A stretch of DNA of 64,000 bases from Loxodes magnus. Lineage: Eukaryota; Ciliophora; Karyorelictea; Loxodida; Loxodidae. The position numbers and the translations under genes were made by a program. Each line of letters starts with the position of its first letter. The stretch's first letter is position 1. A model generated the notes under the pieces. It did no database searches and had not been told where the DNA came from. It saw nothing but the letters and a program-made list of their open reading frames with translations. The DNA is taken from positions 558,001 through 622,000 of the forward strand of contig CAMPDV010000134.1 of NCBI GenBank assembly GCA_946699065.1, given 5' to 3'. Below, in pieces: positions 20,020-57,290 of this stretch.

Positions 20020-21357
20020 ATGCATAAGATAAGTAGACTGTTTTCTCCTTCTTAGAATTAGATTTTTAAACTTTATAAAGATGCTTTCAATAAAGAACCT
20101 TTTCCTAGTTATCCAGCAATAGGAGATAAGAAAATTATCCATCCAGTTAGCGTTTTTTCTGAATTTGGGAAAGTGAAAGCTTTAGTATTAGGTTATACAG
20201 GAGATGATTAAACTCAAATATAAAATAATAAATAGCTTAAAAATAGTGCGTATTCAAAATAAAAAATTGAAGATTTAAGATAAGTATAAAATGAAGTAGC
20301 TTAAAAATTAATTGATCATGGCATTCATATAGTAAGAGCAAGAGAACTTGATTACTCAGAAATAGAAAACACCGCTTTAGCGAGTACTTAGAAACTTTAT
20401 AATTTCAATTCCAGAGATAATTTCTTTTATTATCATGATTCAATTTATGAGTGTTTTCCTACTCTTGTTAGCGGGTAATCAGAAAGTAAAGATTAAGATT
20501 GGATATTTTGCAAATAAAGAGATATGGGAGCAAAATGGTATAAAAGTTAAAAGACAGATGATAATAATTATCATCCTTCTTTGAATGCTTCGAATATACT
20601 CAAAGTTGGCTTAGATTTTTTTTACTTAATTACATGCTCATGAAGTGAATAAGGATATGCTTAATTAAAAAAATTTATGGATGAAAGATATGGAGAAAGA
20701 GTAAGAGTTCATCCAGTTAGAAATATATATTGTAAACAAAGCATTAATACAATTCTTACCGTTTTAGGATTTAACAAAGTTGTTAATAAATATGTTGTAC
20801 TTGTAAATCCAAAGTATATAACTCCAATTAACATTCCAGCTATGTTTAGAAGCTCATTATGAAGAGTGTTAGAATATCCTTTATTAGAAAAATCTAGTTA
20901 ATTTTAAGATTCTGACTAAATAAATAACTAACATTAAAACGAATTACTTATGCTTGATTCCCATCATTCCTTGATTGAAGAAAATTAAACTTCTCTTATA
21001 AAATTACTCAAATTTTATGGAATTGACTCGGTTACGTTTTCAAATAAAACTGGAAGAACTTATGAAGACTCAATAATTAGTATGATAAATGTCTATAATA
21101 GAGAAGAAGATTAAAATTTTATTAAGATTTTCAATACTCCCTCATTATTTTTAGCTAAAAAGAAACTTGAAGGATATTTTTATTTATCTCTACTAGAATA
21201 TTTAGAATCAGATCCGATAGATACCTGAACAGAAGAATGCAATATTAGAGGGATATTTCCTACATATTTAAAAGATCATCTTACTTAAGAGTAAAAAGAT
21301 TAAATGTAAGTAAGAGAGCAAAAATATTAGTATACATACTTTACTAAAAACTGGTGA
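20020..21357 (+). CDS. Glycine amidinotransferase-like protein lacking the active-site cysteine
   Basis: Open from ATG 20,020 (MHKISRLFSPSQNQIFKLY) to TGA 21,355-21,357, 445 codons, near the usual amidinotransferase length. Collinear family features: HPVSVFSEFGKVKALVLGYT (first strand), LIDHGIHIVRARELDY, NFNSRDNFFYYHDSIYECFP (the RD.FF segment), GAKWY, and ILKVGLDFFYLITCSWSEQG. Further on come RVRVHPVRNIYCKQSINTIL and NELLMLDSHHSLIEENQT..LIKLLKFYGIDSV. In active enzymes the last block leads to GGGFHCWT.D with the nucleophilic Cys; here it reads RTYEDSIISMINV. The HIDAT His block is also altered. Likely a pseudoenzyme or decaying gene. Two internal TGA read as Trp. The end is ambiguous because TGG precedes the proposed TGA. 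Confidence 0.75.
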
Positions 21358-25653: not shown

Positions 25654-26509
25654 ATGGCTTCTATTAAATAACAGAACTTTGAACAAAACATTTAAACAGG
25701 AAAATTCTCTAAAAAATAAAAAAGCGAAATAATTACAATGAGTGAAAGTGAGAAATATGATTGATATGACGAACATTAACCACTTGGAAATCCAGAATTA
25801 AAAAAACTTCCGACACAAACTCAAATAGAAATATTATCTAAGTCATTAAAATAGTTTATGTTTAAAAATAGATACCTCACTACTAAAGTAGAAAAATTAG
25901 AAAAACTAATAACGTCTTTACTTGAGAAAAAATATTAATAATCATAAGAAATAGAAAACAAACTGGGACAAAGAATTCTTTAAATTTAATAATAAATTCA
26001 GGTAACGCCATTTTCGATTTAACAGAATTAATCAGATCCTATGGAAATAGAAAATGAAGCCTCAAATTAAAATAAACAGTAAACATTTATTTAAAATAAG
26101 TAGTAAATTTAAATTAAATAAGTGTTACAGGAATAATAGTTTAAAAGAAGAATAAAATGCTACGTGTGCAATAAATAACACCAATGAAAATACTGCTACT
26201 AACTAAGCGAAATTTAAAGAATAAATAAGATATTTTTAGAAAACTATTTAGGATATATCCAACATAAAGCGGAAAAATTTATAGAAAAAAATTCTTTAAT
26301 TCAAATCTTAATCCTTGGATAAATAATTAGGACTACATACAAGATGAAAAATATTCAGAATATTAAAGGATGGTGCGTTAATGAAGTGCTACACCGCCTA
26401 ACTAAGCATAGTAGAAATTCAAGACAAACTAATGGAGACAAGCTGATAGAATAGATCAGATGGCTGACTACTAAGGCTTTAACAAAGCTTTTTAACTTTT
26501 TTTTTTTAA
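25654..26509 (+). mobile_element. Gag-only element E, copy 1
   Basis: ORF from ATG 25,654 (MASIKQQNFEQNIQTGKFSK). A predicted coiled coil is at about residues 60-110 (KVEKLEKLITSLLEKKY), then a CCHC zinc knuckle KCYVCNKQHHQWKYCYQ (CX2CX4HX4C, W from TGA). It stays open to the element end with no clear TGA stop. At 26,370-26,405 lies GGTGCGTTAATGAAGTGCTACACC, a variant of the SINE stem-loop. The same sequence occurs inverted at 46,786-47,628 with virtually no difference noticed, so duplication was recent. The element ends in a T run. The knuckle suggests an RNA-binding retroelement Gag; no RT present. Confidence 0.75.
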
Positions 26510-33816: not shown

Positions 33817-33830
33817 AAAATAATTAGATA

Positions 33831-34142
33831 TAATTAAAAAGATGGTGGGAGCTGAGATTGACCTTCTGAATCATACTTTCTGGTTTTATGGCTAGGAACA
33901 AATTCCTTTCCTGTCGCTGAGAAAGTCCCTGGTCAAAGTCAACCTTTGCAAGGAAACGCCTTCCTTTTGATTATCCACTCCTGGTAGGGGCTTGTAGTCT
34001 GGCTGCCCATAGCGATTGAGCTCCCTGGCAGCTGCTTTTCGAAAGCAACAGGATATCCCCGTTATCCCATGAAGGGAGTATTGGGGTCGTTAAACTACAA
34101 GAAGTTGCAGTCCAAAACTCTTTAAGTTGAAATTAATTAATT
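33831..34142 (+). mobile_element. SINE family B, 312 bp with 14-bp TSD
   Basis: Bounded by AAAATAATTAGATA (33,817-33,830 and 34,143-34,156). Starts TAATTAAAAAGATGGTGGGA, contains GCTAGGAACAAATTCC, CTGAGAAAGTCCCTGGTC, TTATCCACTCC, GCTCCCTGGCAGC and AACAGGATATCC, and ends AATTAATTAATT. Non-coding. Tail plus TSD mean reverse-transcribed insertion. Confidence 0.9.
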
Positions 34143-44275: not shown

Positions 44276-44594
44276 TATTATAATAATTAAAAAGATGGTG
44301 GGAGCTGAGATTGACCTTCTGAATCATACTTTCTGGATTTATGGCTAGGAACAAATTCCTTTCCTGTCGCTGAGAAAGTCCCTGGTCAAATTCAACCTTT
44401 GCAAGGAAGCGCCTTCCTTTTGATTATCCACTCCTGGTAGGGGCTTGAAGCCTGTCTGCCCATAGCGATGGGGCTCCCTGGCAGCTGCTTTTCGAAAGCA
44501 ACAGGATATCCCCGTTATCCCATGAAGGGAGTATTGGTGTCGTTAAACTGCAAGAAGTTGTAGTCCAAAACTCTTTAAGTTTAAAATTAATTAA
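44276..44594 (+). mobile_element. SINE family B with 15-bp TSD
   Basis: Bounded by TAAATAAATTATATT (44,261-44,275 and 44,595-44,609). Almost identical to the copy at 33,831 (GCTAGGAACAAATTCC, AACAGGATATCCCCG), so both derive from a recently active source. Tail AATTAATT. Confidence 0.9.
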
Positions 44595-46785: not shown

Positions 46786-47628
46786 AAGCTTTGTTAAAGC
46801 CTTAGTAGTCAGCCATCTGACCTATTCTATCAGCTTGTCTCCATTAGTTTGTCTTGAATTTCTACTAGGCTTAGTTAGGCGGTGTAACACTTCATTAGCG
46901 CACCATCCTTTAATATTCTGAATAGTTTTAGTCTTGCATGTAGCGTTCCTAATTATTTATCCAAGGATTAAGATTTGAATTAAAGAATTTTTTTCTATAC
47001 ATTTTTCCGCTTTATGTTGGATATATCCTAAATAGTTTTCTAAAAATATCTTATTTATTCTTTCTTTAAATTTCGCTTAGTTAGTAGCAGTATTTTCATT
47101 GGTGTTATTTATTGCACACGTAGCATTTTATTCTTCTTTTAAACTATTATTCCTGTAACACTTATTTAATTTAAATTTACTACTTATTTTAAATAAACGT
47201 TTACTGTTTATTTTAATTTGAGGTTTCATTTTCTATTTCCATAGGATCTGATTAATTCTGTTAAATCGAAAATGGCGTAACCTGAATTTATTATTAAATT
47301 TAAAGAATTCTTTGTTCCAGTTTGTTTTCTATTTCTTATGATTATTAATATTGTTTCTCAAGTAAAGACGTTATTAGTTTTTCTAATTTTTCTACTTTAG
47401 TAGTGAGGTATCTATTTTTAAACATAAACTCTTTTAATGACTTAGATAATATTTTTATTTGAGTTTGTGTCGGAAGTTTTTTAATTCTGGATTTCCAAGT
47501 GGTTAATGTTCGTCATATCAATCATATTTCTCACTTTCACTCATTGTAATTATTTCGTTTTTTTATTTTTTAGAGAATTTTCCTGTTTAAATATTTTGTT
47601 CAAAGTTCTGTTATTTCATAGAAGCCAT
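46786..47628 (-). mobile_element. Gag-only element E, copy 2
   Basis: Inverted, practically identical to 25,654-26,509, including the CCHC knuckle and the GGTGCGTTAATGAAGTGC hairpin. Start ATG at about 47,627. Both copies are flanked by A/T runs, so only a weak 9-bp ATAAAAAAA repeat could be called as TSD. Confidence 0.75.
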
Positions 47629-52137: not shown

Positions 52138-52298
52138 TTTATATTATATTAATAAAATATTGAAATGGAAGATATAAATGATGGTAATAAAAATGTATAA
52201 TAAATAAAATATTAAAAGTTAGCATATAATATAGAATAATTATCATATAATAAAATATTAAATATCTTATTTTCATATTTATTAATAATCTATTTTAA

Positions 52299-53665
52299 AT
52301 GGACTAAGATAGAAGTCACAAAGACTAAAGTGGCCAAAATCGTAAAATATAACAAAAGGAAAACTTTCACTATTCGGACCATTCAATTTGTATTAATTGA
52401 AAGATATTCAGAAGGTAAGATATTGAACAATAGTTGAAGGTTATTATTCATAATAAGAGAGTAATATTCTATTTGTTAGACAGTAAGAGTAAAAACAATA
52501 GAGAGTAAATTTTGTTACTTGATTATAGTTAAATCAACTTAAGAGGATTCTTAATCTAAATTAGAGAGGAAAAGTATTAATTTTACACAGAAAGTATTAA
52601 TTAAATACCTTTAGAAAGTAAAATTTAAGATTCCACTAGAGTGTAATGCAATTTTGATTACAAAATATAGAATAAAATTTAAGATGCTTTCAGAAGGTAA
52701 TAAAACATTTTATAGAAGGTAAAAAGTAAAAATTTATAATAAATTTAAGTTTTATGTTAATAGAAAGTAACTTTGATAACTTTAGATAGTATTAATTTAT
52801 CTAAGGAGGTAAGTAGAAATAAATTACAGAGAGTAAAAATTTTAAATAATAAGGAAATGAAGATTTAATGAAATAAGATATGAGTTAGATAGGAGTAGTG
52901 AATCTATCTACAATGATCATAGATAAAATAAAAATTGTTTAAGACTGTAAATTTTAAATAATTCAGTCCGTAAGATTATAATTTACAAAGGGAGTAATCT
53001 TTAATTATATAGTTGGTAATATATTAAAGCAAGCGAGTATGAATTCTAATATTTCAGATTGTTAGCTTTTAATACAGCTTGTAATGATTATAATTTAAGT
53101 TGGTAAGATACTAAAATAAGTGAGTAAGTAATAAAGATATAGAATGTATTAAATTTAAAAAAGGTTGTAAAAATTATAATTAAGATGGTAAATAATTTAA
53201 TATGTAGCTAGTAATATTTAATAACTATAGAGCGTAATTAATATTCCATAAGATTGTAAGAACATCATAAAGACCGTAAGAAATAACTTTAAATCAGGTA
53301 GTAAGGATTAATTTTAAAGATGGTAATAGATATAATTTTAAAGTTGGTAAGTATTAAATGCTAGTTGGTAAGAAATAAATAATAGTTGGTATATAAATAA
53401 AAATATCAGTTTGTAAATACTCTTAACTAAAAGATGGTAATACTTTAATAATCAGCATGTAAATTTTAAGATGCAGGATGTAATAATTAAAATTTTAAAA
53501 GAATGTAAGCAAAATAATTTTAGGAGGTTTTTTTATAATTTATTAGGTAAAAATTATAATATAAGTCGGTAAAATATAAAATTATAAAGATTGTAGAAAA
53601 TTTTTATTTACTTCAGTTGGTAAATATTTAATTTAAAAGAAGAATGTAAATCATGCTAAATATAG
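52299..53665 (+). CDS. Gene with serial 3-nt microexons and 14-24-nt introns
   Basis: ATG 52,299; proposed first introns 52,342-52,358 (17 nt) and 52,390-52,403 (14 nt). All introns begin GTA (one begins GTTAGC) and end AG. After the second intron every exon length is a multiple of three and every intron splits a codon after position 1. Longer exons read well: KLSLFGPFNLYSEVE, KSTQEDSQSKLERK, CNAILITKYRIKFKMLSE, EGKKQKFIINLSFMLIE, NEDLMKQDMSQIGVVNLSTM. Single-triplet exons occur at 52,480, 52,502, 52,591, 52,615, 52,786, 52,806 and 52,830, and then 25 in a row from TCC 52,967 to AAT 53,502. Concatenated, that run reads FRIANSFVKCYAKHYRNVVV and onward. Two more triplets, at 53,590 and 53,617, lead to DFEE. 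The 3' end is uncertain: an optional intron at 53,646-53,665, and no TGA nearby. Function unknown; Lys-rich N-terminus, several hydrophobic stretches. Alternative: a degenerate ~21-nt minisatellite, which would not explain the phase. Confidence 0.6.
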
Positions 53666-54285
53666 AAACCTTTAACTCTAATTATAACTTTATTTCATTT
53701 AAAATTTATTTATTTTAATTTATAACTAATCAAATATTTATATATATTTTTAAATAAAAATTTTAATTAGAAACAGTTTCACGTTTACAGGAGAAAATCA
53801 AGGATAAGTTTTCTTAAAAATTATAAAATAAATAAAAAAATATTTTATTAAGATAATCAATTTCAGTCGATTAGATGAGATTTAAAAAATAAAATTATTA
53901 TATTGGTCTTAAATATTTAATTTTTACAACTTTAATTTTAATCTTAGTAAATAGGAAAAAATTCATTTTTATTAATGTTCTTTTTGATTATTTAAGTGCT
54001 AGCACGAGGGCCTAGCGTTTCAGGCAATTTACAATTTTTATTGAAATTTTCACATGGAAATTAAAATCTTGCTAATTTTTCATTTTATGGTTATTAAAAT
54101 TATAAAAACTTTTTTCTTTATCTTATTTAAAAAATTTGTACTTTATGCATAACTTTCTTCACAATCTTTTTCTAATATTAATTTTATAAAACATTGATTA
54201 TTTAAACTGGATTATTGCAGATTTATAATAACTTAAATATAATTTATTCCATTAATTGATTTATTAATAAACTTAAAAGGATTCT
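53666..54285. other. AT-rich region after the microexon gene
   Basis: May hold the last exon of the preceding gene: one frame gives LETVSRLQEKIKDKFS near 53,770. A lone GC-richer patch, GCTAGCACGAGGGCC, lies at 54,000. Otherwise nothing supported. Confidence 0.35.
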
Positions 54286-54639: not shown

Positions 54640-57290
54640 ATAACTTCTGAGCTTTATTCTACTTTAGGGAGTAAAAGACCTTAATTTATTTAAAGTTATA
54701 AGGAATGATAATCTAATATTTTGAACAAATTTAATATGGATCATTTCTTATACTTTTAATATTTTTTACCAAAGACTTTATAGTATTCGTTTTTATGAAA
54801 ACTATATCCAAAATAAACTATTTTCTTAGATCTTTTAACATCCTAATTGTTTAAACTAACGCTAACATTAATGCCTACTTGTTTTTAATTCTTAGTTCTT
54901 AAACATATAACTCACACTTACTTACCCTATTGTTAAATTTTACTCATCCAAATACTTTTCATGTTGCTTTAATCATAAATTAATATACTTTTTATTAGAA
55001 ATCAATAGCAAAAATCGATAAAAAATAATCTGCCCAAGTTTTACTAGCAAATAAACGTAAATAGATTTTAATCAAAATTGTTTTAAATAATTTTTCACTT
55101 ACTCGTTAACAAGATTATGAACGATAATAACAAGAACTGGACCATGCAAACTTCCTTATAAGTTTTATGAAAATGTGTCATCTAAAATAAATCTAATATC
55201 TAGTTATGATGCAATGATTCAAAGCAATTTATTAGGGCAAGATGTAGTTTTATCCTACGTAAGTGATTAAGCAGTAGGCTTCTCATGCATATATTCTTCA
55301 TCTGAAAAGTTATAAATAGATGATTTGATTTTCCAACCTTTATGTAAATCAAAAATTGGTTATAAAATTCAAAAAGATACATCATTTTTGTCTACTCTTT
55401 AAAAATCTTTATTATGAAGGTATATAATTTTGCGTTAATAAAAATAAACATAGAACCTTTAAATTAGTTTTTTTATCATATTTTTTTTATTACATTTATG
55501 AGTGAAATTGGACTTTAATTCTTTCAATCATTCTTAGATTCTTTTTTGTAAATCGTGAGAATTTTTAATAATTTAAGTTAACCTGGGATGGCTTACTTTC
55601 TCAATATATTAAAATTAACCTTTATAGCAGATGAAATTCCGTATTAGCATATTTAATAAGCTCTGCTTTTATGCCATTTGCTCCAGATAATTTATTATTG
55701 GTTAGTCTCTTTATAATTTCTTAACTTCTTTATAACTAATAATATCAAATTCTTACAAATAAGAAACTTAGTATTTTTCACAAAGTTCTAATTCTAAAAA
55801 TATTATCAATCCTTTAATTGCTGTTCTTTTGTTTTTTTTAATATTTTTTAAAAAAATACTTTCCTAATCATTAACAAATTAAGTAAATCCTTCTAGATCC
55901 AAATACATAGTTTCTTTCCTATGATTTAGAATTCTATTGATTTTTAAATAGTTTTGCAGGCACTAATTAATTACTTCTTTGTTAATTAATTTCAACCGAA
56001 AAATTTTTTGGACCGGAAACTCCTTTCCGATTGCACAACTCGACGCTCTCTTTTTATGGAATAATGGAGATATCCTGTTGTGCTCCAGGAACAGCTGTTA
56101 GGGAGCTCCATTGCTATAAGCAGCCAGGCTTCAAGCCCCTACCAAGAGCAGATAATCTCAAAGACAGTGTTCCCTTCAGAAAATGACTCTGACCAGGGAC
56201 TTTCTCAGCGATAGGAAAGGAACTTGTCCCTAGCCATAAAACCAGAAAGTGTTGTCACGAAGGTCATTCTCAGCTCCCATCATCTTTTCAATTATAATTA
56301 CTTCTTTGTTTTTTATCTATTTTTACTTATATTATCAGTAATTACATTAATTCCCATCAAAATTGTTTTCTTTTTCTTATACTAGTTATATTAATTGCAA
56401 ATTTTCTCTTCCCTACTATATATGTAATACTTGAAGCTTTTATACTTATATCTCAGTAATAAACTATTTTTTATCCTTCAAGAAAGCTTGCTATAGCTAT
56501 CATTTATACTTTACATATCCTAAAAGATGTTTAGCATTATTATAGAGAGTATGAAATAACTCTTCAATATCAATAATTTTCAGATAAAAATTAAGTTATG
56601 CTGTACTCTAAAGCCTATAATTAAATTATGCTTATTTTCAATTTCTCTTATTATTTGTGTTAGTATAATCTAATTTATAAAAGAGATTAGACATAATCTT
56701 TCTTAATAATAAAATCTTATGTATTTCTATTTTAATTTTATTATTAACCATATAATTCATATAATTCACTTAATTTTCTAACTAGCTTAGTTTTATTTTT
56801 ACACTTGAAAAATAACTGAGGCATATCTTCTTACTTTTGCTTCAAAAAGCTCAGATACTCTTGTATAAGCATCAAGTTTATATTCAATTTCACGCTCACA
56901 ATATTTGGTCAATTAAGTATTTTAAAATTCATAAGTATCTTACATTTTTATTGTGTTATCTTAGGTTTTATTACTTTTAGGAATTCCCAACTTATAAACA
57001 GTATCTTAGTTAAAGTTACGCAATTAATGTTATAAAACTTGTTCAGTTTAAACTAGCTAGTTAAAGATTGTATTAATTACAGATTAAGTGCTAGTATTTA
57101 TCATTTCTATTTTTGATTATCTTAATTTTAAATTTACTAACTAATTTTTCTTTAATTTCTAAATTAAAAGTTGGATTTAATTCTTTTAAATATTAATATT
57201 TTTAAATTTTGATATTATACATAAAATGTCTAGCATTCATTTTAAATTATTGGCCTTTCATTTTCCTTCTCATTTTTTATGTATTTTTAT
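54640..57290 (-). mobile_element. Decayed LINE with reverse-transcriptase remains
   Basis: Minus strand at about 55,400-55,720 reads LTNNKLSGANGIKAELIKYA and, in a second frame, ILTIYKKESKNDWKNQSPIS then LINVIKKIW. These are the 'L..nKspG.DGi.aEllKya' and 'iyKKgskkd..NyRPISLlnv.yKi' blocks of non-LTR retrotransposon RTs. Towards 54,800 another frame has VKRSKKIVYFGYSFHKN, like the post-catalytic '..v.YLG..i' region. The catalytic YADD box was not found. Upstream (56,330-57,260) coding-like sequence such as CEREIEYKLDAYTRVSELFE may be the N-terminal part. A family B SINE interrupts it. Three or more frames are needed: an old dead copy. Confidence 0.65.
55984..56294 (-). mobile_element. SINE family B inserted in the LINE relic, 16-bp TSD
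   Basis: Bounded by TAATTACTTCTTTGTT (55,968-55,983 and 56,295-56,310). Plus strand shows GGACCGGAAACTCCTTTCC, GATATCCTGTTG, CAGGCTTCAAGCCCC and GGGACTTTCTCAGCG. 311 bp. It lies between the RT part and the upstream part of the LINE relic, so it inserted after the LINE. Confidence 0.9.

Follow-up and report, generated by a model that had tools for sequence, protein, structure and literature searches.

Candidate arrays of one-codon exons between tiny GT..AG introns in the karyorelict ciliate Loxodes magnus

The window analyzed here is a 64,000-nt stretch of the Loxodes magnus genome (contig C134, positions 558001-622000), and the assembly from which it derives, 705.73 Mb in 7843 contigs, was searched as a whole. 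One interval on its plus strand (Table 1) is most likely, judging from its sequence, the 3' part of a karyorelict ciliate protein gene with a tail encoded at one codon per exon. Scans of the window against Rfam and for tRNA genes gave no hits. A dispersed repeat of ~300 nt is found at 33830-34129 and 44283-44582 (96% identical), with inverted relatives near 56041-56347, and two inverted copies of 428 nt, 98% complementary and 20.8 kb apart, occupy 25801-26228 and 47055-47482.

Table 1. Features of the putative gene and its array, in window coordinates
Feature	Position	Strand	Basis
Putative first exon or exons, open under code 27 from an ATG; intron positions approximate	52299..52414	+	models place 2 and 4 exons
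27-nt exon, putative	52434..52460	+	both automatic models
45-nt exon, putative	52529..52573	+	both automatic models
57-nt exon, putative; KYRIKFKMLSE... in the models	52640..52696	+	both automatic models
93-nt exon, putative	52854..52946	+	both automatic models
Core array, 26 GT..AG units and 25 candidate three-nt exons, uninterrupted	52947..53523	+	walk, shuffles, chain search
Putative exon following the core array, of 45 nt (earlier note) or shorter, with internal introns	53524..53568	+	both models: 53524-53546
Last units of the array, candidate 3-nt exons 53590-53592 and 53617-53619; possible TGA end near 53,640	53569..53640	+	models

The core array is a strict alternation of two elements. 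A donor-to-donor walk along it counts 26 GT..AG units, 17-22 nt long, with exactly 3 nt between each of them and the next GT; 25 triplets, from TCC to AAT, precede a GAG at 53,524, which is itself followed by GT. The surrounding interval (52,290-53,670) contains 43 AG-NNN-GTA sites, whereas 1000 dinucleotide shuffles of the interval gave a mean of 3.3 AGNNNGTA sites and a maximum of 11. The longest chain of 3-nt exons in the interval has 27 units, against a mean of 2.0 and a maximum of 4 in the same shuffles. Sites of the same type with other spacers are few in the window array, with one each at 2 and 4 nt and six each at 0, 1 and 7 nt, and chains built on spacers other than 3 nt reach at most 3 units in the interval (spacers of 0-7 nt) and, over the whole window and both its strands, no more than 4 (0-9 nt). 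No comparable cluster exists outside the array on either strand of the window, where the remaining AGNNNGTA sites number 58 on the plus and 42 on the minus strand. An earlier note on this DNA had described the strict alternation with its 25 triplets and had denied that it is a simple satellite; the walk and the shuffles confirm the former, and the unit lengths, which set no fixed period, agree with the latter.

Two automatic gene models, both with introns of 15-24 nt and differing in how freely introns were allowed, contain 30 or 34 exons of 3 nt, with 42 or 45 introns. The earlier estimate of about 34 such exons is thus matched by one model and exceeds the other, and that of some 43 introns compares with 42 or 45. 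Among the longer exons named earlier, those of 27, 45 (at 52,529), 57 and 93 nt recur in both models, but the one of 51 nt and the final one of 45 nt come out split. Phases 0, 1 and 2 are mixed in both models because GTT donors and short introns may be accepted or not, so that the sequence allows, without requiring, the claimed phase 1 throughout.

The genetic code bears on any reading of such a gene. An actin search of the genome returned 43 matches of near-equal score (450-460 bits) spanning the whole profile, which contain TAA and TAG and no TGA; in one translation, TAA and TAG fall at usual glutamine positions. The actin matches show no intron break, and many are clustered on few contigs (C266, C711, C437, C707, C524, C1162 and others). 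Within the window, an ORF at 20,020-21,129 (+) stays open over 370 codons only with TAA/TAG read as glutamine and two TGA as tryptophan. Its product may be of amidinotransferase type; no Pfam match above the cut-off was obtained for it, and the part searched had no database homologue at E<=1e-3. The codon use of the actin matches and of this ORF agrees with the karyorelict code, NCBI code 27, which is also used for the published somatic (MAC) assembly of Loxodes magnus (PMC11441545). Stop-codon avoidance was dropped as a test of frame, since TGA is either tryptophan or stop under this likely code.

The earlier note had proposed a genome search for further arrays, and the search found them. The pattern GTAA-N9..21-AG-NNN-GTAA-N9..21-AG-NNN-GTAA has 39,464 matches in the whole genome against 984 for the reversed pattern used as control; these counts are overlapping matches dominated by repeated copies, and they do not count loci. 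The 4-nt version of the pattern has 2,775 matches against 691 in the control, many of the places listed being plain repeats, and the 6-nt version shows no excess (493 against 820). In nine arrays, AG-N3-GTA counts range from 34 to 103, with 0-3 sites at 2-nt and 4-nt spacings, 5-15 at 0 nt and 1-11 at 1 nt. The special place of 3 nt, and the lack of enrichment at 6 nt even though six letters would preserve the frame too, suggest to us that arrays expand through copies of a founder unit and not through exons evolving freely; a mechanism needing exactly 3 nt would fit as well.

A near-identical copy of the window array is present on contig C2050 (matching at 1397 of the 1400 positions compared), and related arrays with 68-77% identity lie on at least 33 further contigs, as found by a DNA search in which 40 of 103 candidates were scored. 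The related arrays examined are part of a gene whose first exon has 178 codons. The RING domain (PF00097) scores above cut-off in all eight family copies scanned; the ubiquitin profile (PF00240, cut-off 25.4) does so only in L013 (25.9), the other seven scoring 17.1-24.4 bits. Searching the genome with the first exon gave at least 151 matches, with E<=4.0e-73 among the matches listed (150 of 2686 first-look candidates scored), and a protein database search with it gave no homologue at E<=1e-3. The RING family is large, though some contigs seem to duplicate one another. Its genes are repeated along single contigs, tens of kb or more apart (seven places on C156, and also C505, C1364, C1317 and C1057); together with identical coordinates in some contig pairs, this suggests both amplification and duplicated contigs.

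All arrays examined in detail lie downstream, on the same strand, of a RING exon or, in one case, of a ubiquitin domain. The latter, L062 (C10:1,008,500-1,011,900), is a different gene in which PF00240 reaches 43.8 bits, and its array has 82 sites, diverse introns and units of 14-26 nt without a fixed period. The largest arrays, L009 and L057, contain 101 and 103 AG-NNN-GTA sites. Family arrays begin with spacings of ~18-23 nt and often turn into a 27-bp repeat composed of a 24-nt intron and 3 nt. The gene start was found in 11 of 13 loci checked; the first exons of three (L010, L016 and L059) are shifted in frame, and the family therefore includes copies that are not intact genes. Long arrays are kept in L010 and L016 despite the shift, which may mark recent pseudogenes, assembly errors or arrays that are independent of frame. 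L059 is decayed and has a dispersed repeat inserted in it; 25 sites are left in 2.1 kb and many signals are lost, with GTA changed to GCA and similar by eye. Also by eye, the repeat interrupting L059 is the ~300-nt repeat of the window. An acceptor AAG in L066 is ACG in its close relative L071, where the lost site merges two units. A weaker array, L058 (C5:19200-22200, minus), has a 32-nt spacing in 10 of 23 intervals.

The window gene and the RING/ubiquitin-like (Ubl) family are clearly related in array DNA only. Spliced alignment of the window gene with the RING/Ubl protein of L003 was no better than with 20 shuffled queries. With the Ubl part alone, the score observed over the full interval was reached by 39-101 of 200 shuffles, depending on the setting; in a narrow interval it was reached by 9-14 of 200, a weak signal whose path uses two introns. 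Family membership by protein was dropped, spliced alignments being at the level of shuffles. The sequence KYRIKFKMLSE... of the 57-nt exon resembles, by eye and not significantly, the start of the family's ubiquitin-like domain.

The array heads of the related family offer a view of how introns and triplets change. Fifteen units were aligned at 28 of 29 loci, all but L015, which gave no anchor, and yielded 24 distinct copies; L075 is partial. Across these copies, 5 of 60 GT/AG columns are variable, compared with 109 of 197 in intron interiors and 22 of 45 at triplet sites, although an unbroken chain of 15 units served to find the heads of L011, L012, L016 and L057, a criterion biased towards conserved sites. 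GT/AG columns are thus variable about six times less often than interiors or triplets (Fisher P = 1e-11 and 3e-6, respectively, for columns and copies that are not independent). Gap cells number 0 of 1077 in triplets and 38 of 5065 in introns, and all 14 letters inserted relative to L005 are intronic. Column counts and gap cells together indicate that the splice dinucleotides are constrained and that length is fixed in the triplets and free in the introns. As the triplets vary about like the intron interiors, the encoded residues are not strongly conserved, and purifying selection on them would be weak or absent.

The units also resemble the spliceosomal introns of this species. They are bordered by GT and AG, and the chained introns average 19.5 nt in the window (n=37) and 19.7 nt in L062 (n=77), within the expected ~16-25 nt; the chain search ran from 14 to 28 nt, and agreement with RNA-seq introns is to that extent built in. 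RNA-seq introns of Loxodes magnus have a mean of 19.3 and a mode of 17 bp, 93% being at most 25 bp, in calls limited to 40 nt (PMC11441545). Lengths divisible by three tend to be depleted among them (PMC11441545), a depletion that is absent from the arrays (17 of 37 introns in the window, 30 of 77 in L062), where 24-nt introns dominate the 27-bp zones. The triplets in turn have the form of micro-exons, internal exons of a few nt between splice sites (AG-NNN-GT). The earlier reading of the units as spliceosomal introns and of the triplets as exons is therefore supported, at the level of DNA, by GT/AG constancy, fixed triplet length, intron lengths like those in RNA-seq and the genome-wide recurrence of the 3-nt spacing. 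We regard real mini-introns with one-codon exons, in arrays enlarged by duplication of units, as the probable explanation.

Three other explanations were weighed against this evidence. An array might be removed as one long intron, or skipped, its internal AG-NNN-GT motifs acting as recursive or regulatory sites and its triplets being untranslated. The weak constraint on the triplets would suit such removal, as would the difficulty of defining an exon of 3 nt, and recursive splicing is established in other systems. One-step removal does not, however, require internal GT and AG to be kept in nearly all 24 copies or indels to avoid the triplets. In addition, introns above 25 nt are a small minority in Loxodes magnus, at least among published calls limited to 40 nt (PMC11441545). 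Removal as a single intron is accordingly improbable.

A satellite or minisatellite that is never spliced, in which variable AT spacers separate copies of a motif AGNNNGTAAG with a structural or protein-binding role, is less probable still. It draws support from the 27-bp zones, which are minisatellite-like in that 24 nt are conserved and 3 nt are free, from the arrays that persist behind the frame-shifted first exons of L010 and L016, and from the share of low-complexity tandem repeats in the published assembly, 231 of 706 Mbp (PMC11441545). A constant period was, however, found only in the 27-bp zones of paralogues and neither in the window nor in L062; the arrays examined follow RING or ubiquitin frames on the same strand, and their unit lengths match RNA-seq introns.

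Internal eliminated sequences (IESs), cut from DNA in development, deserve mention because the host is a ciliate and the units are short and AT-rich, yet we give this option almost no weight. The published account reports Loxodes magnus as lacking canonical IESs, and the assembly searched here matches in size the published somatic (MAC) one, 706 Mbp (PMC11441545). The units begin with GT and end with AG, and the triplets between them are neither TA nor, by eye, repeats of one another, so that neither TA nor pointer borders are seen.

Under the splicing interpretation, the phase in which introns divide the codons can be addressed in the related family. In phase 1, the array heads read RVLKKYWKYFETRDE and variants with the exchanges Y/F, D/E, K/R, T/S and TGG/TGA (both tryptophan in code 27). 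For 31 distinct changes, the mean BLOSUM62 score is +1.65 in phase 1 (null mean 0.74), +0.26 in phase 0 (0.74) and +1.23 in phase 2 (0.62), with P of 0.012 for phase 1 and 0.054 for phase 2, uncorrected for the three phases tested. These figures were obtained without L075 and with the unit-4 readings of L016 and L064, which are alignment slips, set by hand. A smaller set gave P of 0.007 and 0.043 for phases 1 and 2. Of the 31 changes, 6 are synonymous in phase 0, 8 in phase 1 (P 0.11) and 9 in phase 2 (P 0.085). Synonymy gives phase 1 no advantage; what favours that phase is the similarity of the residues exchanged. Phase 1 is modestly favoured for the related family, phase 0 is disfavoured, and phase 2 may still apply.

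The 27-bp zones show the most pronounced contrast between introns and codons. Counting only units with introns of exactly 24 nt that begin with GTA, of which L062 had one and so yields no estimate, 70 units of L009 contain four distinct introns (mean interior diversity 0.022) and six triplets, with diversities of 0.18, 0.55 and 0.53 at the three triplet sites. L014, L010, L005 and L007 have interior diversities of 0.013-0.018 and triplet-site values of 0.50-0.64, and L012, L013, L015, L061, L011 and L057 have 0.09-0.34 and 0.39-0.73. Simple unequal exchange should homogenize introns and triplets alike. The contrast may therefore reflect diversifying selection on codons, separate homogenization of introns or the copying of introns into existing sequence, and a non-contact spacer within a bound motif would look similar.

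The last of the three processes defines a rival account of origin, compatible with splicing itself, in which a mini-intron was copied, in the manner of introners, into successive codons of an older continuous tail. Young zones with near-identical introns and differing codons, as in L009, are what such copying would leave; the near-identical introns are seen within arrays. Against it, codon strings of L009 recur in blocks, the phase-1 text repeating YEQYD..., from which it follows that block duplication happened; we know of no precedent for insertions placed at exactly every third nucleotide. The two first-exon searches, of the protein database and of the genome, turned up no relative carrying this tail without introns. 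We consider introner-like copying rather unlikely. A little less doubtful, and proposed tentatively, is a splicing-dependent system of codon diversification, in which a self-contained cassette of one 24-nt intron and one codon would be amplified in tandem within a large gene family, with the intron held identical and the codon allowed or driven to differ, so that a hypervariable tail would arise through a 3-nt ratchet. Small RNAs of Loxodes magnus peak at 24 and 25 nt (PMC11441545); the 24-nt introns of the 27-bp zones have the size of this peak, possibly by coincidence.

For the preferred reading, mini-introns with one-codon exons, the architecture, the 3-nt specificity, the conservation of GT/AG and the confinement of indels to introns are visible in the DNA, and we infer transcription, splicing, translation and the order of removal. 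Each GT..AG unit of 17-22 nt would be a spliceosomal intron of ordinary size, and the 3 nt between AG and GT one exon. Introns would be defined back to back, in the manner of a ratchet: as two spliceosomes cannot occupy introns 3 nt apart, introns would have to be removed successively, each ligation lengthening the growing exon by 3 nt and freeing the next donor, a ratchet resembling recursive splicing. Arrays would grow by tandem duplication of units of intron and codon, or of blocks of them. Because each unit brings its own splice sites, a duplication would cost one residue and never shift the frame, and for this reason a minisatellite could expand within a coding region. If phase 1 is right, the tail encoded in L009 would be rich in Y, D, E and Q. 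As to the RING/Ubl proteins in general, one may guess that they are ubiquitin ligases whose flexible tails bind substrates or partners.

If the arrays are spliced, neither exon length for recognition nor room for the spliceosome between introns would be needed, contrary to current views. The 25 to ~100 back-to-back introns of 20 nt would then be a natural substrate for studies of sequential splicing, and a minisatellite would be growing inside a coding gene by one residue per unit. Arrays of this kind would tend to escape usual annotation, since an exon of 3 nt gives a read almost nothing to anchor to and screens for tandem repeats discard the regular arrays; the published tandem-repeat annotation, described as using TRF at >=1 kb (PMC11441545), would tend to miss them. 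As public RNA-seq of Loxodes magnus exists, the question of splicing is directly testable.

A literature search found no published account of arrays of 3-nt, one-codon exons among titles and abstract openings, and the systems closest to them each share one feature. Tiny introns are known from heterotrich ciliates. In Loxodes magnus, tiny GT..AG introns are described in ordinary genes, and the material described there includes neither one-codon exons nor arrays (PMC11441545). The array introns resemble these introns in their GT..AG borders and their size of ~15-25 nt, with a nearly equal mean length, and would differ in separating one-codon exons arranged in arrays. A single 3-bp exon, alternatively spliced, is present in Drosophila homothorax (PMC7392893). 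It has exactly the same length, but is single there, whereas 25 candidates lie in a row here and ~100 AG-NNN-GTA sites occur in L009 and L057. Schistosome micro-exon genes and aphid bicycle genes have many short symmetric exons and variable proteins; their exons are mostly longer and their introns long, whereas here the exon would be one codon and the intron ~20 nt. Tandem genomic duplication and introner-like elements are ways to multiply introns, and we know of no report in which either has given an intron at every codon. Recursive splicing and zero-length exons share with the arrays a stepwise removal and a donor beside an acceptor; here, each step would leave one codon behind.
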